From Thuidium tamariscinum (Eukaryota; Streptophyta; Bryopsida; Hypnales; Thuidiaceae): 64,000 bases of DNA. Below are positions 5,443 through 61,879 of this stretch, piece after piece. Position 1 is the stretch's first letter. Each line of letters starts with the position of its first letter. A model generated the notes under the pieces. The model searched no databases and was not told the DNA's origin. It saw only the letters and a program-made list of their open reading frames with translations. The stretch lies in contig OZ019759.1 of the NCBI GenBank assembly GCA_947034885.2, positions 14,758,501 through 14,822,500 of the forward strand. Reading direction: 5' to 3'. The translations under genes were made by a program, and so were the position numbers.

Positions 5443-8211
5443 TCACGCCGTCATCAAAGCATTTGTTGCTTCCCAAACTGGCGGATCAAGAACATCAACC
5501 TTCCAACGTAAATCTCTTTCACTGTCCCATCCAATGTAAAAGTCTTGAACATCTTGGCTTCTAGAAGTTGGGCGAAAATATTGGATGAGGATGTAGTTTG
5601 GCTTTTCAAGATTACAATTCGGGTCAGACAACGCTCATGCGATCCAAACTGGTTGTGAATTACCATCTGCAGGATGAATTGCGATGAAATAACCTTCATA
5701 GAGATCACGACCAATCCTAAAGGATGGTTGTGGACGACCCCGCAAAGGTCCAACATAGGCATCGTCTTATCTAAACTCCTCACGATCCTCACCATCTTCT
5801 CCCAACTGATCAAAAGGATTTGCTTGAACTCGAGTAATAGGCCAGAATTCGTCTTTTAGAACATTTGAGGTAGTAATTGGTTCTTGCAAAGCTTCCTTCA
5901 CATCATGCCAATAATAAACCAAATGTTCATAACGTCTTCGACACTCTCCAGTAACATCTGCATTGCATAAGTTTTCCCTATATTTTACAAACCCAGCTAT
6001 GCCTTTCTCAATGTCTTCCACACCCCTCATTGGTTTTGGAGGAACGGGCAAATGCACTCCGCAAGGCCACAAACTACGCCCCTCAGAATCCTCCTTCCAC
6101 AATTTTATACCGCTACTACCTTCCCCTAACCATTCTATATCCATGCACAACAATTTGTACTTCATGACTGGAACTCCATTTGAATCCAAGTAAAATTTTA
6201 CTTGTTGCGGCTTTGTATGTCCAACAAGGGTCTCATCACCATCCAAGAAAGTCCCTGCAATAAATCCTTTGAAGTCCGGCACCTCCTCAATAAAATGAAG
6301 GATAGTAGAAATAGACTCGACATCCATGAATGACTTCATAAGCACTGGAATTGTTGGAAAATTCTCCTTCTTCAAAAGCATACTCCATCTTCCAAACAAC
6401 GCATTGATGTCATCATGGGTGTGACCCACAATCATGAAGTTCACAAATACTTCATGAAAGATCTTGTTTGCCACAAGCAAAGACCAAAAGCAAAAAACAT
6501 ATCGATTCTTGTTGTCACCAGTGGCATTGTCCATCTGCACATTGAGAATGGGTAGTAATGGCGTCCCTGGAACTAAGAGTTCCGGTGTGGGCGGTAGAGA
6601 GGCTTTGCAAATCTCTGCATCCTTTAAAACTCTCTGAAATAATGTGGACGACCCTGAACCCTCAAACAACAACCGTGAAGATGTCTTTGGTACCTTCTCC
6701 AAATCTCGCAATAATTTTGCCATAGAACCAATGGTGTAATTGGAATCGTGAGGAAAGATATCCAATCCATAATGTGCATAACGAACATCTCCATGACCAT
6801 GAGCAATCATGCTAGTGACAGAAACGGGCAATTTCACTAGGCCATTTGTTTCTTTGCTCTTGTGAGAAAAAACTGGAGAAGCAGTCTTTGCATGGTCCAT
6901 CTTGTCATGCATAATTGTGAGGCACTCATGGGGAGAGGTATGAGACAGGTATCGGTTAGCATAGTATAACTCCCTGTGCGCGCGGGCAATGGCAAGATGT
7001 TTGTCGAGCCTTCTCGACCATTTCAAAGCACTTTCAGAGCCAATGAGAGCATTCTTCTGAAGCTCTTGCAATTTGTCACATGTGCCGCATTGAGCAAAAT
7101 TATCTCCTGGCTTCTTCACATCAAATTCAGGAAACTTCTAGGATCTAATCTTACTCAAGCTTGAAGCTGAGACCCCCTTTAAACCAAAAGCAGCATTTGC
7201 CTCGTTGATTTTTGGGATTTGGCCCTTCCATTGAAAGGTAGCTAGGAGAATCATGGAAACAACTTTGTCTCCAGACTTCAAAGTCCTAGTCCTATGTGGC
7301 ATGTGATCAGTCTCCTTCTCTAAGATGCACTTCAACGTTGCTGAGGCCTGTTCAGTATGCTTCCTTCGCTTTACCATTCCGGTATTACCATGATCCTTTG
7401 CTTCACATTGATCCTTGGCATATGTCTGATATCAGTAAAATGTCGCTTCTGGAACTCCAGAAATAAGCATCCAGGCTCGCATGCAGACACTTAGGCCTTC
7501 CATAGTCACCATCTTCCTCTCGGTCGAGTCATGATCAACCGTTCTGTGAACTTCGGTTTTGAGGTGGGCTCTGAACTTGAATGTAGAGCGTTGATACATT
7601 CTTTCACGGAAGGCTTGAATCTTCTCTCTTGGAAAAGGTTGCACGCAATTCTTGCTACAACACACTCTACTAGAGACCAAATTAATGGATTCTTGTGTGA
7701 GCAGCTCCTTCGCTTTCAAACCAATCTCGCAAGGTGGATTTCTTATAACACTTGAATAGGGCCGTGTGGATGTAGAACTTGCAGGGTTATGAAGAGTAGC
7801 TTATATACGATTGAAATTGTCTCGAGCATCATGATCAAAAAGACTTGCCCCTTGGCAATGGACTAACTTAATAGGCCACGCTATATGTGAATACACTTGC
7901 TCATAGGGAATATCATCTTCAGAGTGTGTCTTGGAAATGTAGATAGCAACGTGCGTGTCACCCAATGGACCGTTGGCACCAAGAACAAGGTCAAAGTTGA
8001 CACTATGACAAGTACCTTCTCCAACGAGGAGACCATCGATGTTGTATAGAGTCACACACTTGGTAATCCACAACCTTCTTGGTAAACCTTCACACTTTGT
8101 GACACCAACATTCATCCCTTCGATTTCATAGAATTCATCGTCTAAAGAGAAGACCATGTCGGTTACATCCGCTGAATAACTCATTGTTCCTATAAATACC
8201 AAAATAAACAT
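5443..8211 (-). pseudogene. DUF7869-like transposon-type protein, pseudogene A
   Basis: One minus-strand frame of about 920 codons with no frameshift from 8211 to 5443, broken by in-frame stops at 7801-7803, 7432-7434, 7138-7140, 5767-5769 and 5635-5637. From N to C it shows: an N-terminal region with CEGLPRR and GASLFDHD; a Cys-rich block (CCSKNCVQPF); a zinc-knuckle-like FAQCGTCDK; then MHDKMDHAKTASP and HGHGDVRYAHYG. The conserved core, QMDNATGDNKNRYVF followed by IVGHTHDDINALF, matches the DUF7869 signature as I remember it. Pseudogene D (55409-61857) is collinear over the whole length. The likely start is the Met at 8182-8184, just after an acceptor-like TTTATAG, which suggests a leader intron holding the palindromes upstream. 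The family is of unknown biochemistry and typical of repetitive eukaryotic genes. The Asp and His residues suggest a nuclease or transposase-like core, but that is inference. Confidence 0.85.
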
Positions 8212-8250
8212 CCGGTAAAGAATCAGGTGTCAAAATAACAATAGTCATGT

Positions 8251-8949
8251 TTCAGCTCGACACGAGTTGAATTAATTATCTCAAAATCAAAGAAGAACGC
8301 ACTTTAGTTGATAAAAACAAGATAAATCTCATCATGAGTATCAATGAAGTCTAAAGTTTTTGACTATGATTAAACATTTGTAAAAACATGGTCAAAATAA
8401 TGGACTACTTAGCATAACCAATATACTACTATTTCAGCTCGAGTCGAGCTAAATAGAAAATCGTGCAACATATCTTCCAACAAGAATTTTAAGTTCATTA
8501 AATTAATAAATTAATTTGTACTGCAATTCAGCTCCATTCGATCTAAAATGCAATTTCAGATATTCTTGAACTAGAAAAGGAGACAAATTGAGATTCTTTG
8601 CATAATTTTTTTACCTCAAAGAACACTCTACAAAAGTATTTGAAGTCTTTAATACATAGTCAATTAGTCACATGTCAGTATTAGATTATAATCTTTTATT
8701 TTAGACTACATGAACTAGAGTCTTTCCTATGACTACTATTTAATATGGGTATTGCTATTCAGCTCTATTCGAGCTAAATTTTGAATTGAGCCCCTCGTAT
8801 ACTATTAAACCACTTGCTCATTGAGCATTATTATCAGCCTAAGATCAAAATAACTAAGCCCTACCTATGTCAATTCAGCTCTAGTCGAGCTGAATTTCAA
8901 TGAAGTAGAGCAAGCTTGTAATTGTATTTCAACTAGACTCGACCCAAAT
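8251..8949. repeat. Palindrome cluster A (type 1, six sites)
   Basis: Six imperfect palindromes of about 21-26 bp at roughly 8251-8272, 8431-8454, 8526-8547, 8756-8780, 8872-8897 and 8927-8949. The half-sites are TTCAGCTC and GAGCTGAA around a CTAGTCGAG-like core; the best is at 8872-8897 (AATTCAGCTC, TAGTC, GAGCTGAATT). The cluster sits directly upstream of pseudogene A, probably inside a leader intron. The same palindrome type recurs around and inside pseudogenes B1 and B2 (19728-26274). Confidence 0.85.
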
Positions 8950-11159
8950 GTTCCGCGATTATCAGAACATTAAACAAACCTATATCTCGTGAGAATATCT
9001 ATTGTTTCCATCCGTAAATTTTGGCGAAATACACGAGACCTTCCCATTCTCACTCTCACATATGCAGTTTCATTCACGACCGAACTTTTGAAATGAATTA
9101 AGAAGGAAGTAGCAAATTTCTAGCATACAATTTTATCACATGTACAACAGTTATTGGGGTGAATTAAACAACTCTTTCAAGTACAAAGAATGTTTGTAAC
9201 ATGTAATTCTGCAAATAAGAGGAGAATGACAGCATGTCTGGAGACGGTGCTCTCGCTTGATTTGTCATGCATTTTACTCCTATGGACGAAATCTGAACTG
9301 TGTGTTGCATTGCGCTTGAAGAAGTTGAGAGGCATGCTCACTGGACTGACCTCTCACTTTGAGGAAAGGATTGCGAGACCGTACGGGGCTCGGAGCCACG
9401 CTCCCACGTGAATAGACTACACGATCCTCGCAGCAGTTTTTGTGACGCAAAGACCCGTTTGTACGCGGGCTGGTGCACTGGACACAAAGACCGACTCTAT
9501 TACAACATTGAAGTAGAATAGAGGGCGAATAATTACTAACCACAGATTCTTCCCGACAAAACATAAACTGCTATGTACCTAAACTGAACTGTCGCAAGTA
9601 CGCCTACATACATTGATGAGGAGAATAATCGAGTTTGATTCCTCAAAGGAGGTGGAAGTAGACATTACCACAAGAACTCAACTTCCCAAGCACTCCAAAA
9701 GACCTCAAAGACAGGAGTCGAAAACACAGCAGACAGTGGTACACAGAAGCATCAACACAAATTCCGCAGCGGCAGAAAGAGGAGTTCAATAACCAAATGG
9801 CAGCCTAAACTAAACTCTGTACGCGGGAAGAAAAGAGCACCAACACATTGTGCAGTTCCAGACATGCGCCTTCAATTTCAAAAAAATTGGAGTCACCCAA
9901 TGGTGACACCGCAGCGTTGCACAGCGACAAAAGCATATAATGTGGAATTCGGCTGAAGATTGGAAAAAAGTAAAGTGTTTTCCTGCTTACGAGGTATTCC
10001 TGTCAGACCTACCGATTTACTTTGGAAGGCCATTGTGGCTACTAGATATGCGCGAGACGTTTTTCCCTGCTTCCGAGGGATCCCTGTTAGAGATATCTGT
10101 TGACTTTCGATTCCCGCATGCAATAGTGGCTACAAGCCATGCGCATTAAGAATCTTCTTCTCATTTTCCGAATTCGCGCTTTTCCCTTTTTGTAGATTCT
10201 CGGGAGATGTTAAATACCCCCTCGGGCTAAACGGGGTACTTGTGGGCAGTGGGCCTCCGCAGGTTGCTTTGCCCGCACTGCCATGTCAATCCAAGTGCCA
10301 TCCCTGGCCCACCCACCCCGGCCTTGATTTGAACCCGTCCCTCCCATTCCCGCTCTCCTCCTCCATCTCCTGCCCATAGCTTTAGATCGTTAGATCTCTC
10401 ATATTTGATGAAGATCGAAAGAATTGAAAAAACTGCGCTCAAATATTGATGTAGACCAACTTCAACTTTGATTTTGGACAAGTATTTGAAGCAATTGGGC
10501 TTGTGAAGATGTGCATCTAGATGGGAACAATAGTTCATGCATGTCATATTACTGTTTACTAGTCTTCTGTAACCACGACTTTAAGTTAGTTCAATTTAGA
10601 TCTTCCTTACTTCATCACGGATTACTAAACCATCAATAGTTTCAAACTTGTCAATTCAACAAGTTGAATGAAGTTCACAGATTCAAAAACTCTACTTATT
10701 CCTAGGGTAGAGTTTTCAGTCCAATAAAGTTTGTTGAATTTATTTGATCAAGAATGTCTAAATTGTGAAACTCGATAAGTATACACAATACACCAAATAT
10801 GTAATTCAAAATTTATCTTTGGAGTTTGGACTCATCTCACAAGTGGTGTAGGAGACGTTTGCATCCTACTTGCATTAAAAAGTTGCACCCGAACACAATT
10901 GTTTTGAATGTCATCACTAGGAGAAATTTGTGGCCTTTGAGAATTTTGTGAATTGAAGAGTGTATGGGTTGTAAGAAATTTGTGGACTTTGAGAAATTGG
11001 TAACTTGCAACTGACTTTTAGTTTGCAACAATTTTGTGAGCTTTGATGAATTTGCGCTCTGCGAGAAATTTGTGAGGGATTTCAGGAATTCTAAGGAACT
11101 TCGGATTCAAGTGCTTTTAGATGCTTATGATCCCCTAAAATTCTGAGAAACCCAAAAAT
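8950..11159. other. Mixed-composition spacer, possible promoter region of A
   Basis: The GC content rises between about 9190 and 10400, so this may hold the promoter and first non-coding exon of pseudogene A. No exon can be proved. A tandem duplication of about 85 bp (roughly 9970-10055 and 10057-10142) repeats the pattern TTTTCCTGCTT, CGAGG, TTCCTGT and GTGGCTAC. Short degenerate repeats of GAGAAATTTGTG lie at 10915-11075. Small open frames at 9190-9411, 9280-9564 and 10227-10547 have no recognisable content. Confidence 0.4.
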
Positions 11160-12730
11160 CCAGATCTGGTTCTCTTGAACCCAAAAATCTGCACTCTTGC
11201 GAGCACTCTTAAATACAGCAAAATTATAGATCAAATTTTCATTCATTTCTAAAACATCCTACATAGTTTGAAAATTTTAAAAAAATGAAAATGGGATATG
11301 GAACAATTAATGGAACTTGAGTGTATGATTTGTACATACAATTAGATGTGACTACTTTGCTATCCTTGGACATGGTTCTCTTAAATATAGCAAAATTATA
11401 CATCAAATTTTCATTCATTCCTAAAATACCTTACATACTTGGACAAATTTTTTGAAAAAAAAAGGAAGTCACGAACAACTTATGGAACTTGAGTGTATGA
11501 TTTCTACCTACAAATAATTGCAACTAGCATGTTATCCATGGGCATGGTTCTCTTAAATACAGCAAAATTATAGATCAAATTTTCATTCATTTCTGAAATA
11601 CCTTACATACTTGGACAAATTTATAAACAATGCAAATGAATTTAGGAATAATTCATGGAATTTGAGTGTATGATTTGTACATACAAATAGTTGTGACTAG
11701 TTTCCTATTGTTGGCCATGGTTCTCTTAAATACAACAATATTGTATATCAAATTTTCATTCATTCCTAAAATACCCTACATACTTAGACAAATTTTTAAG
11801 AATGCAAATGGGTTTCAGGAACAATTCATGGAACTTGAGTGTATGATTTGTACATACAATTAGATGTGACTACTTTGCTATCCTTGGACATGGTTCTCTT
11901 AAATATAGCAAAATTATAGATCAAAGTTTCATTCATTCCTAAAATACCCTACATACTTGGACAAATTTTTAAAAATGCAAATGGGTTTAGGAACAATTAA
12001 TGGAACTTAAGTGTATGATTTGTACATACAAATAGTTGTGATTAGTTTTCTATCGTTGGCTATGGTTCTCTTAAATACAACAAAATTATAGATCAAATTT
12101 TCATTCATTCCTAAAATACCCTACATACTTAGACAAATTTTTAAAAATACAAATGGGCTTAGGAACAACTAATGGATCCTAAATGAATGATTTTTACATA
12201 CAAATAGTTGTGACTACTTTGCTATCCTTAAACATGGTTCTCTTAAATATAGCAAAATTATAGATCAAATTTTCATTCATTCCTAAAATACCTTACATAC
12301 TTGGACAAATTTTTAAAAAAAAATGAATTTAGGAACAATTTATGGAACTTGAGTGTATGATTTTTATATACAAATAGTTGTGACTACTTTGCTATCCTTG
12401 GGCATGGTTCTCTTAAATACACCAAAATTATAGATCAAATTTTCATTCATTGCTTAAATACCCTACATACTTAGACAAATTTTTAAAAATGCAAATGGGT
12501 TTTAGGAACAATTCGTGGAACTTGAGTGTATGATTTTTACATACAAATAGTTGTGACTACTTTGCTATTCTTGGCCATGGTTCTCTTAAATACAACAAAA
12601 TTATAGATCAAATTTTCATTCATTTCTAAAACATCCTACATACTTAGACAAATTTTTAAGAATACAAATGGGTTCAGGGAGAATTAATGGAACTTGAGTG
12701 TATGATTTTTACATACAAATAGTTGATTTT
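11160..12730 (+). repeat. Satellite-like tandem array, 172-bp period (array i)
   Basis: The word CATGGTTCTCTT (TATGG in one copy) recurs at 11371, 11543, 11716, 11889, 12061, 12233, 12403 and 12576. The spacings are 172, 173, 173, 172, 172, 170 and 173 bp, and a partial unit precedes the first. Each unit contains GAACTTGAGTGTATGATT and TTTTCATTCATT. The copies are diverged but collinear. There is no coding content; the frame at 11666-11863 is a by-product of the repeat. Diverged inverted copies lie at 14510-15010. Confidence 0.92.
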
Positions 12731-13904
12731 TACATAATTAAAATCATTTTCTTATGAAAATGTAAAATATTGTGATTTTATTTCCCTTAAAAGAAAGAAC
12801 TTTGTTGCATAATGTTTTTTGTACATAAATTGTATTGCAGACATTGATGTAACAAACTATGTTGGAACGCATTTTCAAAGTACTATTCTCATGCTATGTG
12901 CATGCAAAACTTGAAGTGAACATTTAAGAAATACTTTAAACCTAGTACAAGTTTCAATTCTTTTTACAGTAGGGTCTAAAAATCTGTGGCCATTTCAAGA
13001 AATCAGCAATCTCAAATACAATGATTAGATTAAAAGAAATCTCATGAGTTTTTTAGTTTAAGTGCACACACTTATTGTGAATTAAGAAATTCAAATCAAT
13101 TTCTAAAAACAAAATAAAATCTAGATCCTTAATTTTCATAAATAATTTTAGTAAATAGTTGTTTCTTGGTACGAAATAGACTGAATACTACAATTTAGGA
13201 AAAAACAAACTCCATGATACCTTTGGGTGATGTAAATCCCTACCTTGATTTTGTACAAATTCAATTATTTAACCATAGAGTCATTTGAACTTGTGAAATT
13301 TTTTTTAGAACAAAAATGTTCAAAAAAAAGATGTTTTAGAGAATGAATCTTACTAAATGAAGAGTGTAAACACAATGTACATTCTTCAATTTTGAGAACA
13401 TTTTAAATTATAATAACTTAATCCATAGTTCTAAATGATATTCCAAATAAAAAGACCAAGAAATATACAATGAAGGTATTTATGTGTATCTTGGAATCTT
13501 AAGTGAAAGTTTCATTTTCTTTTTCAAAACCCTTTTTTGGGGGGATTTCTCTAAGCATGTACGATTACCAAAAACTTAATGACAATTGAATGTGATCGTT
13601 GTTGTACTTTCCAGAACCTTAAAAATAAATGCAATACTAGTGTGACTCTTGAGCATCCTAAAGTACTACACATAAGTTCAATTTTTAGTTTGGGTCCACT
13701 TCATCTTTCTTGTGATTAAATCATATTTCATGAGTTAAGGATTGAGGGTTTCTTATAGCCTTCATGAAATTTGAATTTGAAAAGAATACATAGAAGTTCC
13801 AATTGATTTTTCCTAAATACATTTGCACTTTTTTCTCATTTCTTCAAATAATCAATTTTTTTTTTAAATCAATGATTGAGGAACCAAAAAAAATTATTCT
13901 AATG
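12731..13904. other. AT-rich spacer between arrays
   Basis: AT-rich single-copy-looking sequence with no gene, no clear tandem repeat and no RNA motif that I can support. Confidence 0.4.
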
Positions 13905-14300
13905 TAAAAACAGGCCTAATTGTCATTTTTTTCCTACAAATCAAGAACCTATAATGTCATGAAATTCATGTCCAAAGAGGCCAAATTTTTTTTTAAGAAG
14001 TTGCAATGCCCTAAGACATTTGCATTACAAGACTAATTAGAATGGCATGAGCACTTATTGGCCAACCTCCATTTTTGAAGGAAATTGGGCTTCACTGCCA
14101 TTGTCTTCCTACAAATGAAGAAGCTGTAAATGTCAAGAAATTCACGTAAAAAAAAGCCAAATTTTTTTGGAGAAGTTGCAATGTCCTAGGACATTTGCAT
14201 TTCAACTAATTTCAATGGCATGACCAGTAAATGGTGAATTAATTTTTAAAAGGAAAACGGGCCTCATTGTCATTTTCTTCCTAAAAATAAATAGAACATG
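13905..14300 (+). repeat. Second 172-bp-period array (array ii)
   Basis: Two full units and a partial third. The phrase 'GGGCCTCATTGTCATTTTC' and its variants occur at about 13911, 14086 and 14256 (spacing 175 and 170). Each full unit continues with CTACAAAT, AAATTCA(T/C)GT, GCCAAATTTTTTT and AAGTTGCAATG(C/T)CCTA. The sequence is unrelated to array i but has the same period. Confidence 0.75.
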
Positions 14301-15010
14301 TAGAATTTACTTCAATTGTCACTAAAAATAGTCTTGAAATGTGAATGTTTTAAGACATTCTAAATTTGACAAAAAGAATTTGAATGCTTTTGCTGAATTT
14401 CATGACATTTATAGGTTTTAGATCTCTAGGATGAAAATGGTAATGAGGCTTGCTTTCTCTTTAAAGCATTTGATTGATTGATTCATCTATACTATAGTAA
14501 ACCTCTCCTTAAAATTGAACACTAACCCATTTGGATTTTTGTAGAATTTGTTGAAGTGTGTACATTGTTTTAGAAAACGATTGAGAATCTCATCTTGGAC
14601 GTTTTTGTTGTTTTTAAGGGAACCATGCCCAAGGATAAATTACTAGTAGCAATTGTTTTTATATAAAAATCATACATAGAATGTCTATTATTATGCCCTA
14701 AACACATTTTCTTTTTCTTAGGGTTTGTTCTAGTGAGTAGAATGTTTTAGACATAAATGAGAATGTGATCCACATTTTTGCTATATTTAAGAGAACCAAG
14801 ACCAAAGATTGAATAATAGTGACAATTATTTTTATGCAAAAATCATACTTACAAGTTCTATTTTTTCTCTTCCAAACCCATTGTATTCATTTTTTGGATT
14901 TGTTGAAGTCTGTATGATTTTTAAGAAATTAGTGACAATAGGATCCAAATTTTGGGTTTAGTTAAGAGAATGTAGCTTAAAAAATAAATGATAGTGACAA
15001 TTATTTGTAT
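14301..15010 (-). repeat. Inverted copies of arrays ii and i
   Basis: At about 14398-14455 the reverse complement of the array ii unit appears (ATTTCATGACATTTATAGG and onward). Reverse-complement units of array i then follow: GGGAACCATGCCC near 14620, GAGAACCAAGACC near 14791 and a decayed match near 14964, spacing 171 and 173 bp. The order i-ii | ii'-i' makes 11.2-15.0 kb one large, diverged inverted duplication centred near 14.3-14.4 kb. Confidence 0.75.
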
Positions 15011-16048
15011 TAAGAACAATTATGGTTAAAAGATCTAGAATATGGTGAAATAAATAAAGAATACAACATGAAGGTCAATATGTTGTCTACAATCCTTATA
15101 GCATGAAAATGTAGGAGTACTGGTTACTCTTTTGTCAATGGAAAAGAAAATGCAATGAATATTAAGGTTGAGTTTATTTCCAATTCCATCAAGATTGTAA
15201 ATTTTGGTCACATTAGAAGTCTATAGAAATTAATATTCCCCTAACATTACATTTAGTAAAGTACAATAGAGGTTGTTTTTATTATAGATTCTATTTTTCA
15301 TTCATGGATATGGTATCATGCATTAATGAGTTCAAAATTTTTTTATTTTAAAATTATTGTAGTTTTCAATATAGTGGTGGCTTAGGGTTGAATCATTTTA
15401 ATTTTTTAATTGTTGAATGTAGGATTTTTGAAATTGCATTAAAACAAGGGCTATTACTTTATTTGGTATCATTATGAAGTTAAATGAATTCTACTATGAA
15501 TGGTTACCTTAATTTATATATGAATTTTAGATCATAGAAGAACTTTTAAAGTCCAATTCTTTTGACTTTTGTTCAAATCTTTGACTTTTGAAATAAGGAG
15601 ATCCAAGAGTGCATCTCTAGACAAAGAATTGTAGAATTTGAAAGATGAAATCCTTTTTAATAATGTTTGGGGGAACCTACAATTGTTTTCTATTAAAATG
15701 TAGATTTGAAAAAGAAAGATGTTCTACTATAATTTGTATATTAATGATTGTTTCTACATTTTAGAAGCAATTCAATGACACTATCATGAAAAAATGTTTG
15801 ATAAAGTGCAAATAATGATAATTGTAATATTCTCTTGAAATTGGAAGATTTAGAGTTGGAACCAAAACATGCATTTTATAGAGTTTTTGAGTATAAAAGG
15901 GGTTTTACTTTACAAAATAAATGTAGTTATCAAATTGAAGAGTTAGAGTAATTTGAAAATTGTTTAGACAGTTATGTAGGATAGCAAGGTTATTCAAATT
16001 TTTGATTCTATAGAAGAACTTTGTATACAAATGAGACAAGGAAAGTAT
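15011..16048. other. AT-rich spacer
   Basis: No gene, repeat or RNA feature that I can support. Confidence 0.4.
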
Positions 16049-16052
16049 TTAA

Positions 16053-16788
16053 CCCCTAAAGCCATGAGGTGTGTATTTTGGCATTATAAATTTTTGGAGC
16101 AGCTCACTATGAATGGAGTTTTTATTTTTTTATTTGAATTTTTTAAACAAAATGTGCCCAAGGAGTAGCTTGAAGTCCAAACAATTTTTGTAACTTTTGA
16201 CTTTGTGGTTAAAAAGTTATGGATTGGCATGTTTTCTATACTCGGAGGGCAGCCCGGGTAGCTCAAAAAAATTCTTTAATTAAATTTTTTTTCCTAAAGT
16301 GAAATTTCAAATTGATTCTTTAGGTTTTTATAGACATAGGAAGCTTTGTTTCATTCCATTTGGATTAAGGAGTCAAAAGTTATGAGCAATTTTAATTTGA
16401 GCGTAGGTATGGTTTCCAAAAATTCCATACCTACCCACAAACTAAAATTGCTGATAACTTTTGATTCCTTAATCCAAATGGAATGAAACAAAGCTTCCTA
16501 TGTCTCAAAAGACCTACAAAATCAATTTGAAATTTCTTTTTTGAAAAAAATTTAATTCAAGGGTGTTTTCCAGCTGCCTGGGCTGCCCTCCGAGTAAAGA
16601 AAATGACATATCATTACTAAGCATTTTTACCACAAAGTCAAAAGTTACAAAAACTATTGGAACTTCAAGCTACTCCTCGGACACATCTTGTGTACAAAAT
16701 TGAAAGAAAAAAAACAAAACTGTATTCATAGTGAGCTGTCCAAACAATTTATGGGAAAACTACAAAATGCACCTCAGGGCTTTAGGGG
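16053..16788. mobile_element. Near-palindromic 736-bp element bounded by TTAA
   Basis: Two arms of about 365 bp are inverted copies of each other along their whole length, meeting near 16418. Landmarks in both arms include CCCCTAAAGCC at the tips, GAGCAGCTCACTATGA-like blocks, CTCGGAGGGCAGCCC, and GGAATGAAACAAAGCTTCC near the centre. The outer ends are CCCCTAAAGCC and GGCTTTAGGGG, each preceded or followed by TTAA (16049-16052 and 16789-16792). TTAA with C-rich tips is what a piggyBac-type MITE would show. In a palindrome, however, TTAA could simply be part of the arm, so the class is inferred. No protein is encoded; the frame at 16084-16266 is chance. Confidence 0.85.
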
Positions 16789-16792
16789 TTAA

Positions 16793-17443
16793 CCACCCAA
16801 GAAGGCGCAGGCATGTACTAGGGAAGAATAGATATGTTAGGGTCAAGTAGGGCTACTTCATATATCTTGAAACGGATTTGATTAATTTTACAACAATGTT
16901 AAAGACCAAAATGGTATGATGGATGATAAGGAATTTTTCCATATAGATAAAAAAAACAATCATTCATCCTTAGTTTAGAAGTAAAAAGTAGAGATCTTCT
17001 GTACTTCTTTGACTTCAAATGAATTTTTTTGAATATTTTTTTGCCATTGGTTCTCACGGTTTAAGAAGTGATGAACCTCTGTGTTCTAAAATGACAAGCG
17101 GGCGGGTATGAAAGGGGCGGGTATGGCAAGGGGGGTTTACCAGCACTGCATAGCCGAGTATTTTGGCTTTCTGTGCATACACGTTTATTTTTGCTGCGTG
17201 CGGAGTTTTGCGCCACCCGCTGCTGTATTTGCCGCCGAATTATTCTTATCCCTCATTGTTGCAAACCCTAGCTGATGCTTTTGCAGCTGAGTTTTGTTCT
17301 TATTGCAGATCGTTGCAAACCCTGGTTGACTTGTAGTAAATTTCTGTCATGTGAAGTTGGGGAGGGTTTTGTTGGATTCCCATTTGTGGGATCTCTTGAA
17401 GTAGTGGTTTGAGTTCACGCTGGAGTTTGAAGGCAGCTGTGGC
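16793..17443. other. Spacer rising in GC content
   Basis: AT-rich at first, then a more mixed, gene-like composition from about 17095 (GCGGGCGGGTATG and downstream), which could be promoter or 5' untranslated sequence for whatever transcript used the exons suggested below. Confidence 0.35.
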
Positions 17444-17526
17444 ATGCGGCTTCAACAAGTGGAGCTTCTGGAATTTGTGGAATTTGGAGACATTGTGGAG
17501 CTTCTGTTTCCTGATCGCCATCGCCG
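17444..17526 (+). CDS. Possible short exon ending at a GTAAGT donor
   Basis: An ATG at 17444 opens a frame rich in Leu, Glu, Val and Phe (it begins MRLQQVELLEFV). It runs into a strong donor-like sequence, GCC followed by GTAAGT, near 17525. Composition is more gene-like than the surroundings. No homology recognised and no matching acceptor or second exon established. It may instead be a leader exon of transcript B1, which starts 3 kb further on. Confidence 0.2.
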
Positions 17527-18471
17527 TAAGTTCCAAACACAAAATTTGCATATTCTTGTTTTTGTTAGTAAACTCATGCGTACACTTGCGGTTTTCAATC
17601 CCTGTTGTGTGATGTTTTTTTTTCATTCTTCCGATATACTCCACCCAAGCCCTTAATGCGGTAATTAGCAAATTGTAAATCCAAGCAGCTTGTTCAAACT
17701 CGGTTGTTGGAAAAGGTAACTAGCCTTGTTCAGTACCTTTGATCAGTTTTTCCTTTTCACAATCAAACGAATGATTTATAGCGGCAATATTTTCCGAATG
17801 TCATTCTCTTGTTTGGAAGAGAGCAGCTCGTTGTTATGGAATCTTCAAGGAGCTTCTTTCATTTCCAAACTAGAGACTGAATCGAACTTCTGCGTGTACC
17901 CAACTAGTTGAGCGTCGAGATATTTGATTCGAGTTGCGAGAAGAGGAAATTGCGAGATAGGTCGGCCAACTCTGCAAGCAGTGTAGGGCCAAGCAGGGTC
18001 CAGAGACTAGGGGCTACTGAGGTGCTGGCCCTGCTGGTAATTATTAGGTTTTTTGTTAGTTTTCTCCAAGGTGCTTGCGCATGCACTTTTTTGGTATAAG
18101 AAGATGTTTTGTATTTGAGAAAAATTATCTGTTTTTGGGAAAGTGAGTCAATTCCTCTTGCAGCGCTAATTCGCCATAGAGGCTTTGTCCACCGTCCAGG
18201 GCTAGTTTGTCACTCTTGTTAGAGTACCCTTCCATCCATTGCCAGTTTGCCATGGGTGCTCTGTCCACCATTGTTGTCAGTCTAGTACGTAGCTTACAAT
18301 TCCAGCTTGATTTTTTGAATTAGCTTGTGCGAGCTTCTCACTTGCTCTCGATATGAAGTTCAAGTTCATTGGGAGAAATTCATGTGCAAACAAGTTGTAA
18401 GGGGTTAGTTCGCGCTGTTGACACGCTTTTCTTTCCCTCAACAGAGATTATTTCCGGTCCTGGATTCTGCT

Positions 18472-18537
18472 ATGGCCTCCCTAATTTCCCGTCGCGCTTG
18501 CTCTCGATCTCAAGAGCGTCTCGTCGTCGTTTCAAGG
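18472..18537 (+). CDS. Possible first exon with transit-peptide-like sequence
   Basis: The ATG at 18472 opens about 22 codons (MASLISRRACSRSQERLVVV, then S and R) ending at a donor-like GTATGT. The peptide is rich in Ser and Arg and has no acidic residue apart from one Glu, which is what a mitochondrial or plastid targeting peptide looks like. No downstream exon of a host gene could be tied to it. It may be a relic of a gene fragment, or chance. Confidence 0.25.
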
Positions 18538-18940
18538 TATGTTTTACCTCGCTTGATTTTGTATCGGCCTCCCCAAGTTTGTTGCAAATTGCGTCATGAT
18601 TGAGAGGAAGGTGCTCCGATCACGAGAATGTTCAGTTCAGCTATCTAGTTTAAACTGTTTTAGGTTTGATGTGGGAAGGAAATTGAAGTAGTGTTGCTAG
18701 AGGATGCGGCTGGTGGTATGGCAATTGGTTCCCGTGGTTAGGGCTACCTTGTGAGGGATGAAGCTTGTATTTGCTCTTGGATTCTTGGAGAATTGGAGCT
18801 GACCATGAGTGAGGACGTTGCTTGAGATTTCATTTTGGAACACTACGGAATGTATTGAGGATTTCACCTCAATTATGGAATTAGACGGTTGAGGCAATTC
18901 GAGGTAGCTTGGATTGTCGCTATGTTTGATTTGTCGGTAT

Positions 18941-19071
18941 CAGTGATCCCAAAACTGGCTAAATTTCGCTCATTTTCTACTTAATTTTTTCATGCCCTTT
19001 GTATAAATTTTTTAAAATCTTCCAAAAATGAACATCTGGCTAAAACTCCTGAATCTATTCTGAGATCACTG
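18941..19071. mobile_element. hAT-type MITE (131 bp) with 8-bp target duplication
   Basis: The ends are inverted repeats beginning CAGTGATC, and the flanks carry an identical 8-bp direct repeat, GTCGGTAT, at 18933-18940 and 19072-19079. An 8-bp duplication with CA...TG ends is the hallmark of the hAT superfamily. The element is far too short to code for anything, so it is non-autonomous. It is unrelated in sequence to the hAT transposase relic at 32.3 kb as far as I can see. Confidence 0.85.
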
Positions 19072-19079
19072 GTCGGTAT

Positions 19080-24783: not shown

Positions 24784-24804
24784 TTAGCTCGATTCGAGCT
24801 CAAT
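24784..24804. repeat. Type 1 palindrome 3' of B1
   Basis: TTAGCTCGATTCGAGCTCAA, an imperfect palindrome of the same type, just downstream of the last B1 coding trace and before the B2 start. Confidence 0.7.
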
Positions 24805-34575: not shown

Positions 34576-34581
34576 GCCAAA

Positions 34582-49337: not shown

Positions 49338-49340
49338 ACT

Positions 49341-49705: not shown

Positions 49706-49708
49706 ACT

Positions 49709-54584: not shown

Positions 54585-55379
54585 CTTATTGTCGACTCGA
54601 AGATAATTAAAAATTTTAATGTTTTTGAATACTTTTAGTCTTCAGTTGTTGTCGTGTCAATATGAACATACTGAAGTACATTGCTTTAAAACAGATATTT
54701 ATTATCGTCGACTCGACAATAGCATTTAATTAATGTATTTGTTTTCTGTGTTCATCCGAAGGACCTAATGAATTTGATTGAACTCTCCACAGAGTTATTT
54801 AAGTTCATCCTTAGAGAAGATAACATTTTGTCTTAGATGATATCCTTGATTCGATGATAGCTATCTGCAGTGGCGGGGAAGATTCTGGGCTGTGTATTGG
54901 TGCATCTATACAAACGAAATGACTTACCTTTATATTTGAAGACACCTTTGGATGTTTATTTGTCAATTGATGAGATTGATTTGTAGAGAGAGAGGTCAAT
55001 GGTGGAAGACAATGTTTGTTGGAACTATCTTATAATTGGGGTTGTGTATGTTGTGTACCTTCTGCATGAAACCATATTAAATATTCAATTTTATCGAAGA
55101 TATGGACAAGTGTTTTGACTTTTAAATAGTTGGACATACATCATTTTTCTAGTTATCCTCGAGTCGACGATAAATACTAAATGCCACTACATACATATTA
55201 TGAAATGTTTCCCTTCATGACCAACCTTGCTCTTATAGTTTCTTAAGACTAGCATTTTGATAATCCGTACAATTCATCTTTATCGAGTATCAATAGTCAT
55301 CAAAGTGTGTTACAATCATAGAATGTTGTATCACAAACAATTTTTAGTTGAACTCTTTATCATTGAGTCGATGATATGC
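54585..55379. repeat. Palindrome cluster D (type 2, five sites)
   Basis: Palindromes at about 54585-54610, 54698-54724, 54836-54865, 55151-55177 and 55355-55379, with half-sites TTATTGTCGA / TCGAAGATAA and TTATCGTCGA / TCGACAATA. They match the type 2 sites of C1 30 bp for site-type, not the type 1 sites of the other DUF7869 pseudogene. The cluster ends 30 bp before the D start codon, with an acceptor-like TATTTGTAG between, so it probably lies in a leader intron. Confidence 0.88.
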
Positions 55380-58321
55380 TTTTTCATTTGGAGCTAACTA
55401 TTTGTAGAATGGATTACCATGGCCCTGAGGATTTTGCAAATCCAGTGACAATACTTCCACTTGATGTTCGTTTATGCGAGGGACTTCCTTGTGGGAAGTA
55501 GATCACGCAGCTGTTCACTCTTCAAGATGAAGACGGAGTGGACATTGCAAGGGGAGTCATTCAAAACATTGACCCTGATATGATCTTTGATCAAAATGGA
55601 AAATCTCTAGGCGATGACCGAGTTGCTGTACACATTGTGGAGTCTTTGAATGAAGAGCTTTTTTCTTCGGCGAATATGTGGTCTATACGCTCTTGGCACA
55701 TTAGGAATGTGTTTTTGTATGATGGTGCTTCTTTGTATGACCATGACGAAACACATAAATACAACACAGCTATGAATCCCAAAAGAGTTCAAAAGGGGTT
55801 ACGATCGTACGAAACAACTCGTGTGAGAATTGATCCTGAGGTCCCTCCCAAGAAACAACTTCTCCTGACTATGGAATTGATCACAGCAATTTCCACAAAA
55901 ACTTGTTGCAAGAAGATTTGTGTGCAGCATTTTCCGCGTGTATAAGTTCAAGCAATACGAACCAAGTTGTATGGTGGTGGTGACTTCAAGGCTTGCAACA
56001 AGACTTTGTTTAAGGTGCATAGGCAAATCCACAAAGATGTTAATGGCAAAGAATGGATCACCTTAAAAGAGAAGGAAGTCTGTCCTACAATATGGTGGAT
56101 CATTCATGGAATTGCAAAATGTACATTCTATAGGTACAAAGAGAAATCCAAAACTGGGAAGGAAGTTGATGTGTATGGAAATTTGGAATCCCAAAAATCA
56201 CGTATGGAAACTATTCAAGCAACTGCCACACTTCGAAAGTTAATTGAGTCAGATGTTGATAAGATGCCACACAAGACGAGCACACTGAAATTTGGAGAGA
56301 AGGTTACTGCCATGGTTCTCCCATCCTTGTTTTGATGGAGTGATCAATTGAAAACAATCAATGAATCCAATGCAAGCTTCAATTTGCCACCCATTTCTTC
56401 TGGTGGTTTGAGCAATATTCGTCGTGATTTATTTCTTGAATTTGTTGCAAAGGCTCGTGGGGATATATTTGCTAGATGTGGGTTGTGTGACAAGTACAAT
56501 CAATTGAGAAGCACTTGTGTAGGTGAAGAGGCAAAGTCTAAGTGGGCAGAATTGAAGAAAACCCATAATCAGGGGCAATTGGTTCATAGGCAACTCTACT
56601 ACGGACATTGGGACAAATCAGTAAGAACGCCTGATAAAGTGTTGTGCATTATTCACGACAAAATGGATCATTCTAAGACCGCTTCTCCACACTTTTCTCA
56701 TAAAACCAAGGTCACTGAATCGTTCATGAAAATGCCTGTAGCAATAACAGGTATGATTGCTTATGGGCATGGTGATGTGTGTGAGCCCTCGAGATGGCAC
56801 TTAGGACTCTGGGTCCATTTTTCGCGATTAAATAGCGAAAATTAGTCAAAATATTCAAGAAAAAGACATAAAAAGAGTGTTGAGGGAGTTTTGGTGTCAG
56901 TCTATGCCAAAATGGTGGAAAACCAACTTAGAAGGTGGAAAATTCCTAATCCTAGAAATTTGAATCATTCTAAGTCTCCAAAGCAAGTTTATGTGAAGAT
57001 TTAGTAATTCCGAGAGAAATAAGGAATCGAGAGTTAGTTAGTCCTAGTACTTGTCTGTGCAAAGTCAACCTTTTAAGGATGCACATGACATACTGACTAA
57101 GATAAAAGAGTCTACTACGAGCCTAGAAGAGTTACCAGGGCTTAAGTTCAATTTTGGAACAAATTGAATTTAAAAGTAAAACCACCACAATGGGTTTGGA
57201 GAATTCGAACTTCACGAGATAAAAGATGGAGGATCGGAGATTGAAGGCTACAGAGAGGTGTTCCAAGGGTAGGAGCATGCCAGGAGTGAACAAGAATCAA
57301 ACAATTGTCCAAGATTCCCGGGCATCGGGAATTAAATTGTCCAATTGGGCAAAGTAATTCCAAATTACTAAAATTAGAAAGGTGCAAGGTTGCGTGGGAC
57401 TTACACAAAGAATCTAGGAGTGCCCTAAATGTTACCCAATTTATTTCAGATTTTTCCGAAATTCCACGTTGACTCCATGGGAAGTCAACCGCACATAGAA
57501 ATGTTCGTAAATTCATAGAAATTAAGTATGATGCGGTAAAATCTCACTAAAAATTAGGATAGGTTTTTGTGTGCTTAATAAGCGCCCGGTCAAGTTTGAA
57601 GACATTCCGACATTCCCAACTACCAGAACCGGCATCGACATCGAAGTTCACTGGAAGTTACAAGTTGGCGGCGGGTTGACCGGCGTATCAGGAGCGAATG
57701 ATGTCCGATTGTCGCAAATAAGGAGTCATTCCTTACTCTCACGGACATTCCTAACAACCCTGGCTTGACAGATTCATCAAAATGCGCAAATCCTAAAAGT
57801 TAGATTTTTGACTTTTAATTGGAGTTACCGTAATTCCAATTTGGGCGTGCAAATGGCTTAGGAGTGAGGGGTAAGGGGTCCTCTAGGCTAATTGGGGTCT
57901 TCTGAAGACAATGGCGCAGACGATTTTCCGTTTCGAGTTGTTCCCTAAAACATAGAGAGGGTCAGCTCTTAGTTTGACTTTTTAATCGTTAATTGCGGTT
58001 AATTAGAAGTGATTTTGGAAATATCTCTTGGAAAATCAAAGATTGGATTTGGTCAAGATCTCTTTCTTGCATAAAAAGCCATCTTTGGACTAAAGAAAGA
58101 CAATTTTCAAAATGACTTTTGGTTAATTTGCAAAATATCTACGTAAATTAGGGTTAATTCCAAAATATTTTGGGTTAAGATCTTGGATTTGATTTGGCCA
58201 AGATTTCGTTTGCCAAATGGGGATGTTTTTAGAAATTTCCACCATTAAACAACTAATATTTTGGAATTACATTAGGGTAGTATAGGGTAGGAAGTACCAA
58301 AGTATTTTCACTGGCAATTAC

Positions 58322-58365
58322 CGAGAGGGGCCCGGCCACGGGTATATAAGGGCCCCCCTCGAGGT
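58322..58365 (+). promoter_or_regulatory. TATA box inside a GC-rich stem
   Basis: TATATAAG at 58343-58350 sits between GAGAGGGGCCC and GGGCCCCCCTC, which are nearly complementary. A single strong TATA box within an otherwise non-coding insertion fits the U3/R border of an LTR. Confidence 0.55.
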
Positions 58366-58597
58366 TGCCAATACCCTTATTTCTCGCACCGACACTTTGT
58401 TCTTCTGCTATTTGTGCCACTGACACGGTTGGGGCACTACTTGGACCAAGATTTTTGGCCAAGTCTTGTTTGTGTTTAGTTTTTTTTCAAATTTGAAGGC
58501 TTAGGGCCCCTTCAACTTTTATTTATTTGTCACATCACTCAAGAGGCAAGGCCTCAACACTTTCTCTGCTACTAGTTCATTGAAATTTTGAGTATTG

Positions 58598-58750
58598 AGA
58601 GCCAAAGTTCGGCTTAAACACTGTCATGTGTACCTCCTTTGGTTGCAAAATTCCAAAATACTAGGAAATTTTAAGAGTTTAAAGTGAAAGTCCGGTTTAA
58701 ACACTGTCATGTGTACCTCCTTTTGCGAATAAAACTCTCAAAATACTACA
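58598..58750 (+). repeat. Direct duplication of about 85 bp
   Basis: TTAAACACTGTCATGTGTAC followed by CTCCTTT occurs twice, near 58615 and 58702, with similar flanks (AAGTTCGGC/AAGTCCGGT and CAAAATACTA). It lies downstream of the TATA box in the LTR-like insertion. Confidence 0.75.
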
Positions 58751-59029
58751 ATTATCAAGACATGGCGGAGCTTTGTACCCATAACACTTACTGAAACATT
58801 GGGGGAATTTTACTCTCAACTGTTAAACACCACGCAAGCCTTGGAATGAAATTAAGTAGAACCAAATTTCTCAGATTCCATTATTAAATCATTCCAAAGT
58901 GAAACCTCCAAATTATTAGTTTTAAATTGGAGAGGATTCCCAAAATTTCACATATTGGAGAATCCCAAAATTCCAAATTTCAACATTAAAAGGGTGGACC
59001 AGTACACCCAAGCGGCCAAACCACCCAGC

Positions 59030-59200
59030 GGGCGGCCAGCACACCCAGGCGGGTTGGGTACCAGAGGGCGGGCCAGGAAGGGAGTCGGGCGCTGGGAGGG
59101 GAGTCGGGGTCGCTGGGAAGGGAGTCAGGCGCTGGAAGGGAGTCGGATCGCTGGAGAGGGGAGTCGGGTCGCTGGAGGGGAGTCGGGGTCTGGTCCAGGG
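59030..59200 (+). repeat. G-rich minisatellite
   Basis: About seven units of 20-25 bp built on GGGAGTCGGGTCGCTGGAG. The G-runs on one strand could form G-quadruplexes. Long open frames across it (58955-59239 plus, 58922-59300 minus) are repeat artefacts. Confidence 0.8.
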
Positions 59201-59659
59201 ACTCAAGTAAGTTTGGAACTCTCCAAAAGTTGGATATAAATTCACACTTATGGTTGGCAGTTGGCACTACATCCTTGCTTTTTGAACAAAAATCCAACAT
59301 TTGGAAGTCACAAAAATTTCATAACTTTCTTCACATTCTAAACTCCATAGCCACCTCTCTCCACAAAAAACTTGTAAAACATACTAAACAAGAAGGAGAG
59401 AGAAGGAGAAGTGGTTAGGAAGATTAAGGTGATGAAATCCGACACGTGAAGCCAATTACGAATAAACAATTGATTTTTGGGGGAATAACACTATAGAAAT
59501 AGATTCTTATTTTTGATGGTTGACCCTTGGGAATAAAAAACTAGTTTCCTTCGGAATATCACTATTACTAATATTCTCGTTCTTTAGGAATGTTCTACAT
59601 TCTTTGGTAGTTAGTCATTAATTAGATTCTTAGAAAGTTTGGATTTTATTGGTTTTGTT

Positions 59660-59880
59660 TTATTAGGCCTAATAAGCCAAAAGGGAAACAAACAAATTGA
59701 CAACCAATTTCTTTAGAATTAACGCAAATTCAAAAATTAATTAGATTTGAAAAGATTTGATGATAGTTTTTGATTAAAATATTCTAATAAGCCAAAAGGG
59801 AAACAAACAAATTGACAACCAATTTCTTTGGGATTAAAATAATTTCAAAAATTAATTGGATTTGAAAAGATTTGAAGGGA
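59660..59880 (+). repeat. Tandem duplication, 119-bp spacing
   Basis: CTAATAAGCCAAAAGGGAAA, CAAACAAATTGACAACC and AATTTCTTT occur at about 59668 and again at about 59787, both followed by AAAAATTAATT and GATTTGAAAAGATTTGA. Inside the LTR-like insertion. Confidence 0.85.
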
Positions 59881-60175
59881 AATTCCATCCATATTAATTT
59901 AATTCAATTGGAATTTAGTGGAATTTTATAATATCAATGGAAAACTAAAATAAAAACAAAGAACAACAAATAGTTAACTAATAGAATTCTGTTGATTTCT
60001 TTAGAATAGGACATTAACCAACTAGGTAGGCTAATTTAATTGTAGTATTTCCTAATTACCGGGAACCTAGGAATTAAAAGAATTACGCAATTGAATTCAC
60101 GCTACATAACCTTTAATTTCTTTTTAATCAGGACAGAATTAATTGACCAACAACGTGAGAATTATTATGGATTAG

Positions 60176-60270
60176 ATGGAGAGCCGGGATGATTTTGATG
60201 GCGAGGTTGTGGGAGAATATTTACACATGATGATGTTTGACGACGGGACCATGGAGATTTACGCAGAAGA
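60176..60270 (+). CDS. Possible short leader exon in the LTR-like insertion
   Basis: ATG at 60176, then about 31 acidic codons (MESRDDFDGEVV...) with codon-like composition, ending at a GAG|GTAAAC donor-like sequence. It could be a leader or capture relic near the 3' end of the insertion. No acceptor partner inside the window was identified, and it may be chance. Confidence 0.25.
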
Positions 60271-61879
60271 GGTAAACCACTCACATTTGATTTTTATTCT
60301 CATTGTTTTACTGTTAAGTTTTTTTTTCCAAATGCTTGGAATTAGATTTAGGCAACATCATTTGATAGAATAGAATAGAATAGGGTCTCGTTGGGTTGAA
60401 TTTTAGAATAGAATAGATAGAATTATAACCACGAAATTAGATCAGAACACTCAAAAGACGTGACTAAAAGAGTTCATTGCTTGGAAGGCTTTCTTTTAAC
60501 ACCCAATTAGAAAGAAAACTCAATTAGATACAGGACCCGTGTGAAAAACTCTTAGCTCGAGGGTGGAGTTAGGAGCGCTCACAATGTGCGATATGCACAC
60601 TATGGTTTAGACATTTATCCAATTGATTCAAATCATACCATTAGGTCGATTGCAAGGTTGTTGCGTGATTTGGAAGGAGCGCCAAAGAATTCATTGTGCA
60701 TGTTATTTTCAATAGAAGACAAGCAATCCACCTTGACAAAGGTACTTTTAGATGGAGAAGTAACTGGCTTGGACTCGCTCCTTCCACCTCCGGATGGAAC
60801 ACTTCCACCTAAACCTCTTCCCCCTGTTTTAATATTACAACAGGACAATTGTTCAGGGGACAACAAGAACCGTTATGTTTTTGGTTTTTGCTCCATGCTT
60901 GTATACAAAGGCATTTTTCGGGAGGTATACATCAACTTCTTCATTGTGGGGCACACTCATGACGACATTGATGCTCTTTTTGATTGATGGAGCTTGAGAT
61001 TGAAGACAAATAACTATCCAACACTTCCTAGGCTTATGAAGTCCTTTATGGATACTGAAAAGCACCCTGTGATTCCTCATCTCATTAAAGAAGTTTCTGA
61101 CTTCAAGGCGTTTGTGCACGAATACCTTGACACAGGTGGGAATTTCTTAGAGGGTCATTCTAGATTCCAACAGTTCAAGTTTTTCAAGGATTCTAATGGA
61201 TGGCCTTTGATGGAATACAAGAATTTGTGTACAGATGATAAGTGGTTGCCCGAGGGTGGCAAGGGAATTAGATTGTGGTCCGAGACTGCACATGGCCTTC
61301 TCAAAGTGCCAACAAATAATCCTCCACCTTCAGTTCTTGAACTGATGAAAGCACTTCAAGACATAAGAAAGGGTTTGAACAATTTTGTTGCTAATTGGAA
61401 GAAGATGACATATGACAATTATACAGGAGAGTTCAGGCGGAAAAATGGCACCTTAGAAGATTATTGGAAAGGTGTTTAAAGGGCTCTGGATGCACCTCTT
61501 CAAGTTCGTGAGTCATTACTTGATGGCTTTTGGCCGGCTTCTAGGATTACCCCTAACAAGACTGATTACATGCAAAAAGATGGCACATTGCATGAGGAAG
61601 ATGTAGAAGATGCACCATTTGTTGGACGTAGACGTGATCGACTAAGTCCTTCATTCCGTGTTAATGTTGATACGCACGAAGGTTTTTTTATTGCAGTGCA
61701 CCTTACTAATGGTGACCCTAAACCATTTTGGCTTGCTAGGGCCATTATGGCTCCAAGTCCAAATCCAGGGCATATGCATATGATCAAAATTCAGTATTGG
61801 ATGCCTGCCTCAAATCGACACATTAAGAGTTGCTGGATGAAACATTGCTCCTTTTTTTGACCAACAATGTTTTGGTTGA

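Follow-up and report, generated by a model that had tools for sequence, protein, structure and literature searches.

Two related families of giant DNA transposons in the moss Thuidium tamariscinum, with a partner protein proposed to read family-specific palindromes

The two mirror-image gene groups found in a 64,000-nt stretch of Thuidium tamariscinum DNA (Thuidiaceae, Hypnales, Bryopsida; GCA_947034885.2, contig OZ019759.1, positions 14,758,501-14,822,500 of the forward strand; hereafter the window) represent two related families of cut-and-paste DNA transposons, both giant, and the mobile part is therefore of a known kind. An element of family 1 has 25-bp terminal inverted repeats (TIRs), a 4-bp target duplication and an outward DUF7869 gene near one end and, toward the other end, a divergent partner gene that encodes a GQHS-motif part and a DNA-adenine-methylase fold and beyond which FCP1-like sequence lies. 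Palindromes of 21 bp lie upstream of both the DUF7869 and the partner gene and also between coding parts, their sequence being specific to family and subtype. The initial annotation had described the mirror-image layout, which is confirmed, and a single large mobile element inferred from it is supported, as the two genes are paired repeatedly and the copies share termini and carry target duplications. It had taken the two units as two copies, and whilst they do have the same layout they belong to two families, one member being intact and the other truncated; as none of the repeats reported within the window is common to both units and the families are separate, the two units do not repeat a single sequence.

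Unit 1 is a complete family-1 transposon of 23,558 bp (4517-28074), its earlier bounds of 5443-27035 having been corrected by the homology limits of other copies, the TIRs and the target duplication. The left homology limit falls at 4508-4517 in 7 of 7 other family-1 copies, the right limit of 28074-28081 is common to five family-1 copies, and the left TIR (AACATCATATTCATTAATTTGGGAG, 4517-4541, + strand) and right TIR (AACATCATATTCAATAAAATGAGAG, 28050-28074, - strand) are flanked by the duplication TTAC (4513-4516 and 28075-28078). A 4-bp duplication was found, with the flanks read by eye, in all 10 family-1 copies for which both ends are available; single-ended copies were left out of this count, as was the copy at C11:0.22 Mb, for which L029 gave no left terminus.

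Within unit 1 the DUF7869 gene points outward, as had been claimed for both units, and is spread over several frames (5638-8229, - strand), with a Pfam match to PF25273 (E 1.2e-38) for 5767-7137 and flanking pieces that match the DUF7869 gene of unit 2. Upstream of it is a palindrome cluster at 8250-8895 (5 matches at ≤3 mismatches), the central spacer contains a 172-bp satellite (11206-12725), and a second palindrome cluster at 19732-20473, partly within 154-bp tandem repeats (19859-20233), lies upstream of partner gene 1. The partner gene (20500-24259, + strand) consists of an N-terminal part, the GQHS-motif part (21422-22018), the methylase-fold part (22103-23473) and a possible tail (23699-24259). 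The FCP1-like (NIF-domain) gene beyond it is degraded (25303-26190, + strand), with about 72-73% DNA identity to stretches with PF03031 ORFs in L009, L014 and L028. Further palindromes occur amid the partner and FCP1-like coding parts at 21969-26272 (sites at 21969, 23462, 23553, 24782 and 26250), their placement relative to the coding parts being judged by eye.

The same order of genes, as had been described, is found in the opposite orientation in unit 2, a truncated member of the second family. A broken FCP1-like gene (36300-36850, - strand), seen by eye in a six-frame translation, is followed by the methylase-fold part of partner gene 2 (39099-40421, - strand), which is homologous to partner gene 1 at 25-33% at the amino-acid level and has 20 other places in the genome at 82-91% (query 39099-41332). 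Palindrome clusters of the TTATCNTCGANTCGANGATAA type lie upstream of this gene (41745-42316, with a further site at 37507) and upstream of the DUF7869 gene (54586-55377). The 5' half of DUF7869 gene 2 (55502-56779, + strand) is separated from its 3' half (60584-61826, + strand; PF25273 E 6.4e-7 for 60988-61479) by a 3.8-kb insertion at 56780-60583, a repeat also found elsewhere; the insertion is real, its flanks being contiguous in L021, but its former description as an LTR element is unsupported since a self-comparison gave no long terminal repeats. The 3' half ends abruptly at 61826, where unit 2 is cut by another repeat and where at least 21 other places, among the matches listed, also stop matching.

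The family-2 terminus, defined by comparing two copies elsewhere in the genome, was absent when the whole window was scanned, and looking ab initio around unit 2 for inverted repeats accompanied by matching duplications gave nothing convincing. Genome-wide there are 549 family-2 termini (control 0), with 18 end pairs spaced at 17.5-22.8 kb and a 4-bp duplication in 9 of the 10 copies tested. The TIRs are 25 bp in both families and agree between them at 19-20 of 25 bases.

The pairing of DUF7869 and partner genes recurs across the genome. Partner-gene DNA in the expected orientation is contained in 13 of 20 stretches taken beside family-1 DUF7869 copies, 13-23 kb away toward the partner, with FCP1-like DNA in 11 of those 13, and the other 7 stretches have neither. 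Where a DUF7869 gene was sought 5-30 kb upstream of the partner, a divergent one was found at 17 of 37 family-1 and 15 of 35 family-2 places among the matches listed (the window's two included), at distances of 12-29 kb, although some counted pairs may join genes of different elements, such as C2:970169 with C2:948089, the latter having family-2 palindromes beside it. Other arrangements at 5-30 kb number two in each family among the same matches, and random placement gave a mean of 1.0 and 1.1 pairs (families 1 and 2), with a maximum of 5 and 6 in 2000 draws. It could be supposed that two unrelated repeat families came to be adjacent by chance through independent insertions, both gene types being abundant and 20 of the 37 family-1 and 20 of the 35 family-2 partner places, among the matches listed, having no divergent DUF7869 gene at 5-30 kb. 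The probability of this is negligible, as orientation and distance are far above random, and for family 1 it is refuted by the 10 of 10 two-ended copies in which one 4-bp duplication and one TIR pair enclose both genes; the shared ends and duplications thus lead to the rejection of independent insertions.

DUF7869 is a large family without a stated function, for which no paper was found in the literature searched, and it gains from these elements a probable role. The two DUF7869 genes of the window are homologous (31-57% amino-acid identity per matching piece), and the protein has an RNase H-like fold with an acidic (DDD) triad. Foldseek alone gave no significant match to the transposase model (best E 0.17), whilst a second pass with VIA-align gave DDE matches, and DUF7869 is probably a DDE transposase, which we infer to act on the TIRs. 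In this genome the family has 853 candidates, of which 150 were scored, and a search of viral contigs gave no DUF7869 relative.

The initial annotation had placed palindromes at the inner flanks of both units, and this is borne out by pattern matches set against shuffled sequence. Unit 1 has 16 matches, all in 8250-26272, with 0 in 100 shuffles, and unit 2 has 12 in 41745-42316 and 54586-55173, where 6 places count twice, once per strand, against a shuffle mean of 0.63. The palindromes are concentrated around the genes of these elements, in what was judged by eye to be non-coding DNA, and 91 of 119 are centred on GANTC, which is the site of the bacterial methylase CcrM. TRF run on 13 partner stretches found no tandem array with palindromes, such an array being present in the window only. 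In the copies examined the palindrome has a version particular to each family and subtype, the same on both sides of each copy; the subtype test covered those 11 of 20 copies in which the partner is present with two or more sites per side. Between the AT and TT subtypes of family 1 the identity of the transposase exon is 94-95% and that of the partner exon 67-68%, with the upstream DNA unalignable; within the transposase the core is 95-99% identical and the N-terminal part 85-90% at the DNA level. As the subtypes differ in partner and upstream DNA while the transposase is nearly identical, the palindromes appear to change together with the partner.

The partner had been labelled a ParB/methylase protein, of which the methylase half stands by its fold, that of a beta-class DNA adenine methylase (M.BceJIV, CcrM), as shown on relatives of partner gene 1. 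It has a ParB-like GQHS motif, but ParB did not rise above threshold in any HMM or PDB sequence search made; among 23 sequences the best score of DUF6551 was E 0.038 (3 of 23) and that of a ParB-like PHROG E 0.18 (1 of 23), and a PDB search with the profile gave no match. In such methylases DPPY or DPPW is the catalytic motif, and the C-terminal stretch usually has an acidic start and a GT. At the DPPY place, set by strand order in alignment A2, most aligned relatives of the partner have D-F/L/V-R, the exceptions being P0139 (NFK) and P0163 (DFQ), and the C-terminal FAGGK stretch has neither the acidic start nor the GT. A bacterial-type methylase fold is here reused in a plant transposon. In all three genomic stretches scanned that are related to that of unit 1, the FCP1-like sequence has the NIF domain PF03031 (E 9e-16 to 1e-14). 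FCP1/NIF phosphatases have the catalytic motif DxDx(T/V), and the FCP1-like ORFs have DLNG(I/V/E)L instead.

It is proposed, at slightly better than an even chance, that these giant transposon families recognise themselves and resist silencing by means of a palindrome-reading partner. The partner or its dimer would bind the palindromes, its methylase fold reading the mostly GANTC-centred site without methylating it, as the absence of DPPY suggests, with the half-site beyond the core setting family specificity. From introns and from the upstream DNA of the two genes the partner would mark the element as self and maintain its expression against host silencing, to which the FCP1-like protein may perhaps contribute by acting on RNA polymerase II, in an overall scheme akin to the VANC anti-silencing of VANDAL built from unrelated proteins. 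A narrower version, in which a captured and catalytically dead CcrM-type methylase with its GQHS-motif part forms a private address system, reading GANTC-centred 21-bp palindromes with outer half-sites that vary from family to family and so protecting its own family only, is more tentative and falls somewhat short of an even chance.

Subterminal motifs bound by the transposase are known from Ac and Spm, and the palindromes could likewise be internal binding sites of the DUF7869 transposase, being concentrated around element genes and with the N-terminal part of that protein, perhaps DNA-binding, less conserved than its core. This is unlikely, however, as the palindromes are not subterminal, those in the window lying at least 3.7 kb from the left end and at least 1.8 kb from the right, and the subtype differences track the partner, which differs by a third. 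The beta-class fold and the prevalence of GANTC centres would also suit a partner that is a working adenine or cytosine-N4 methylase marking the core of its own palindromes, which the D-F/L/V-R of most relatives and the altered FAGGK stretch make rather improbable. Multiple palindromic sites near one gene, together with the GQHS motif, might instead point to operators or a ParB-parS-like partition or replication system, serving copy control or replication timing with no anti-silencing; with ParB below threshold in the searches made and sites both upstream of the two genes and between coding parts, this has a low probability. The anti-silencing proposal matters in that few systems are known by which transposons evade silencing in a family-specific way, VANC being one. 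Across the two families and two subtypes the site varies together with its candidate reader, while the transposases of the subtypes are almost identical, so that a simple binding assay could decode a recognition code.

No description of such an element was found in the literature searched, most subscription journals lying outside the search, and Rfam gave no match at the gathering threshold. The Sola transposons have a DDD transposase, 4-bp target duplications and TIRs of 11-1124 bp, are mostly 2-9 kb with some above 15 kb, and have been reported from the moss Physcomitrella patens (PMC10741241). The moss elements resemble them in the DDD triad, the 4-bp duplications, the size range and the moss host, and differ in that the available part of the Sola account mentions neither a partner methylase nor an FCP1-like gene, nor palindromes specific to a family. 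TET/JBP genes are carried by fungal DNA transposons that, though unrelated, have also acquired a gene of DNA-modification type (PMC12730594); this gene is of another enzyme class, and the available part of that account has no matched palindromes. With CcrM and other beta-class methylases the partner shares its fold, and most intact palindromes share the GANTC centre, whereas the partner is without DPPY, belongs to a eukaryotic transposon and is joined to a GQHS-motif part.

The target duplications of VANDAL elements are about 9 bp, against 4 bp in the moss elements. VANDAL elements are MuDR elements (PMC12730594, in the part available), and VANC, as the available part of its account describes it, is an element protein besides the transposase, with a short family-specific motif, dense upstream and in introns and in tandem repeats, that changes together with the protein (PMC5735166). 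The moss elements share with this partial account a family-specific motif in non-coding DNA, a protein of their own and the covariation of the two (a tandem array being found in the window only), and differ from it in their 4-bp duplications, DUF7869 transposase, methylase-fold protein and a 21-bp palindrome in place of a 9-base motif. VANC binds its motif and removes methylation, and the moss partner may play a corresponding role. If true, it would be a structurally unrelated, independent invention of VANC function, and the hundreds of element ends and about 2000 sites in one genome would form a natural series of protein-site pairs.

The window lies at C11:14758501-14822500 of a 363.2-Mb, 19-contig assembly, and the two DUF7869 genes proposed in the initial annotation, here read as putative DDE transposases, were borne out by six-frame ORFs and Pfam. 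A protein of the moss Physcomitrium patens, found among the best 120 of 343 protein relatives, has 74% identity to the first of them. The annotation also saw two mirror-image copies of one element; protein comparison within the window does match the DUF7869 genes (31-57% amino-acid identity per piece) and the methylase-fold partner genes (25-33%) in mirror order, but the units represent two related families and unit 2 is truncated. Between the units lie hAT-type transposase pieces (33100-34209; DUF659 and hAT dimerisation domains by Pfam).

Unit 1 is one complete element, bounded at 4517 and 28074 by inverted repeats of 25 bp. A genome-wide DNA search with 5443-7443 gave 27 rows of at least 84% identity (one over part of the query) among the best 40 of 369 candidates. 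Transposase-side homology starts at 4508-4517 in all seven other copies fetched, and on the opposite side it stops at 28074-28081 in five. Common outer ends and target duplications had been proposed as a check, and both were found for this family: with flanks read by eye, a perfect 4-bp duplication borders each of the ten copies for which both ends were recovered, the sequences being TTAC in the window copy, TATT (C1:43.57 Mb), TTTA (C2:0.67 Mb), AACC (C3:11.98 Mb), AGGG (C5:0.55 Mb), TGGA (C6:24.88 Mb), and on C11 AATA (12.60 Mb), GTAA (13.72 Mb), CTCT (13.87 Mb) and ATAT (16.76 Mb). As the DUF7869 gene and partner both sit between the duplicated ends in all ten, they moved together.

On the partner side one 10-kb stretch, 13-23 kb away, was taken for each of the first 20 copies other than the window's own. 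Partner-gene DNA was found in the expected order and orientation in 13/20, with FCP1-like DNA likewise in 11 of these 13, the pieces being ~64-81% identical and some spread apart by insertions; neither was found in the other seven stretches (L013, L015, L016, L019, L021, L025 and L027). The unit-1 spacer contains nested inverted repeats (16086-16752; arms 60-147 bp, 81-89%), which are also present in L021.

The head-to-head pairing also recurs genome-wide. Among the matches listed, DUF7869 merged to 195 places, and 17/37 places of partner 1 and 15/35 of partner 2 have a DUF7869 gene in divergent orientation 5-30 kb upstream (actual range 12-29 kb); these counts include the window's own two. 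The random spacing and orientation that would have spoken against a single element were absent, other arrangements at 5-30 kb numbering only 2 and 2 among the matches listed, and random placement gave means of 1.0 and 1.1 pairs with maxima of 5 and 6 in 2000 draws. In some further pairs the spacing widens to 31-46 kb, possibly through nested insertions. Contig C11 (17.5 of 363 Mb, <5% of the genome) holds, window included and among the matches listed, 16/27 of the family-1 rows of at least 84% and 16/21 of the best partner-2 rows; it is possibly a sex chromosome or one of low recombination. A partner homologue, P0168, is filed under an uncultured Synechococcales cyanobacterium bin; our guess is that plant DNA probably ended up in this metagenome bin.

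Unit 2 is a truncated member of a second family. Among the matches listed, its partner gene has 20 further genomic places (82-91% over >1.2 kb), and its transposase side matches 21 other places up to 61826 and none beyond, a different repeat beginning at 61827 and cutting the unit. That repeat (61827-63038, minus strand), with ~82-87% copies on several contigs, encodes a third protein, a distant one, whose YYIIGGQHT motif resembles the GQHS part of the partner (32% over 41 aa), and there may be a further family of such proteins. The common family-2 end in two other copies, L021 and L069, is AAGGCC(T/A)TATTCGTTAAAA(C/T)GAGAC; by eye, its common T/A and T forms share 19-20/25 positions with AACATCATATTCATTAAAATGAGAG, the right terminus that is commoner in family 1 and present in L028, thus the families are related. 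Allowing up to 2 mismatches, the genome has 549 occurrences of the family-2 terminus (reversed control 0). Among the best 100 of the 549, 43 have a listed DUF7869 match on their inner side, at most 3 kb away and oriented toward the end, and 1 has such a match placed otherwise; neighbours <40 kb apart face inward in 19 pairs, 18 of them spanning 17.5-22.8 kb, and otherwise in 5. Among the matches listed 16/19 inward-facing pairs enclose a DUF7869 match, and 9 of the first 10 have a perfect 4-bp duplication, extending the predicted target duplications to family 2. The terminus was seen by eye just outside the transposase gene in five partner-2 copies (C1:22.65, C4:32.49, C6:22.83, C11:0.11 and C11:2.76 Mb); most other pairs of family-2 terminal repeats have no partner-2 match among those listed, and their partners may be missing or more diverged. 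L021 (C11:4036069-4046068) holds a family-2 end, transposase gene and palindromes ~13 kb downstream of a transposase copy of family 1, and these are probably nested within the spacer of that copy.

Both families carry palindromes. All 16 unit-1 occurrences of the motif ATTCAGCTCNANTNGAGCTGAAT fall within the element (shuffles none), and unit 2 has a TTATCNTCGANTCGANGATAA-like motif on both inner flanks, with degenerate sites between the coding parts too. A 347-bp satellite in the unit-2 spacer (46726-48150) contains long nested palindromes, TGTGACTAATGCCC...GGGCATTAGTCACA, which differ from those of the element. A search of the 20 transposase-upstream and the partner-side stretches without a presupposed core recovered the same kind of 21-bp palindrome copy after copy. 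The family-1 core has 89 sites in the 20 upstream stretches (at least one in 16/20; 0.65 expected from block shuffles) and 93 in the 13 partner stretches vs 4.4 expected, and is absent from the seven stretches without a partner (1.25 expected), one of which, L021, has the family-2 sites of its nested element. Genome-wide the family-1 form has 249 places (control 0) and the family-2 form 1664 (control 2); 37 of the first 50 of the former (random 0.5) and 39 of the first 50 of the latter (random 0.8) have a listed gene or end of an element no more than 20 kb away, and the remaining 13 and 11 may point to copies that are degraded or absent from the listing. Successive sites are 151-157 bp apart, upstream of or at the partner gene start, in 10/13 partner stretches, where TRF called no tandem array at these sites.

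Palindrome type follows the partner. Family-1 copies split into ATCAGCT and TT(C/T)AGCT subtypes, and the expected sharing of type by the two sides of a copy was recovered (r 0.96, n=11, p 0.002). In five copies (three AT, two TT) transposase exon identity is 94-95% between subtypes and 97-98% within, and methylase exon identity 67-68% and 91-98%; copies within a subtype are related, so few independent events lie behind this co-variation. The window copy is distinct from both (90% transposase exon, 69-71% methylase exon). Whilst the transposase core reaches 95-99% identity between subtypes, DNA upstream of its start codon is unalignable (51-64% forced), yet bears each subtype's own palindromes; therefore the sites changed together with the distant partner gene. 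GANTC stands at the exact centre of 91/119 palindromes found without a presupposed core, the other 28 comprising 19 of the same type with altered centre and 9 unrelated, and at that of 0/5 controls. Against this pattern, unit 1 keeps GANTC at only 3/13 family-type sites (8433, 20328, 24783); this copy may have decayed or may represent a different subtype.

The complete giant transposon family and its relative are real and of a known general kind, likest to Sola by duplication length and size. The palindrome set co-varying with a methylase-fold partner is a feature new to us, and by analogy with VANC, the anti-silencing protein of Arabidopsis VANDAL elements, it may have an anti-silencing role. 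The window has a tandem array of 154-bp units that each hold one palindrome, and VANDAL motifs likewise occur in tandem repeats (PMC5735166). CcrM is among the closest folds to the partner, and the site on which it acts is GANTC (PMC6787082), the centre of most palindromes here.
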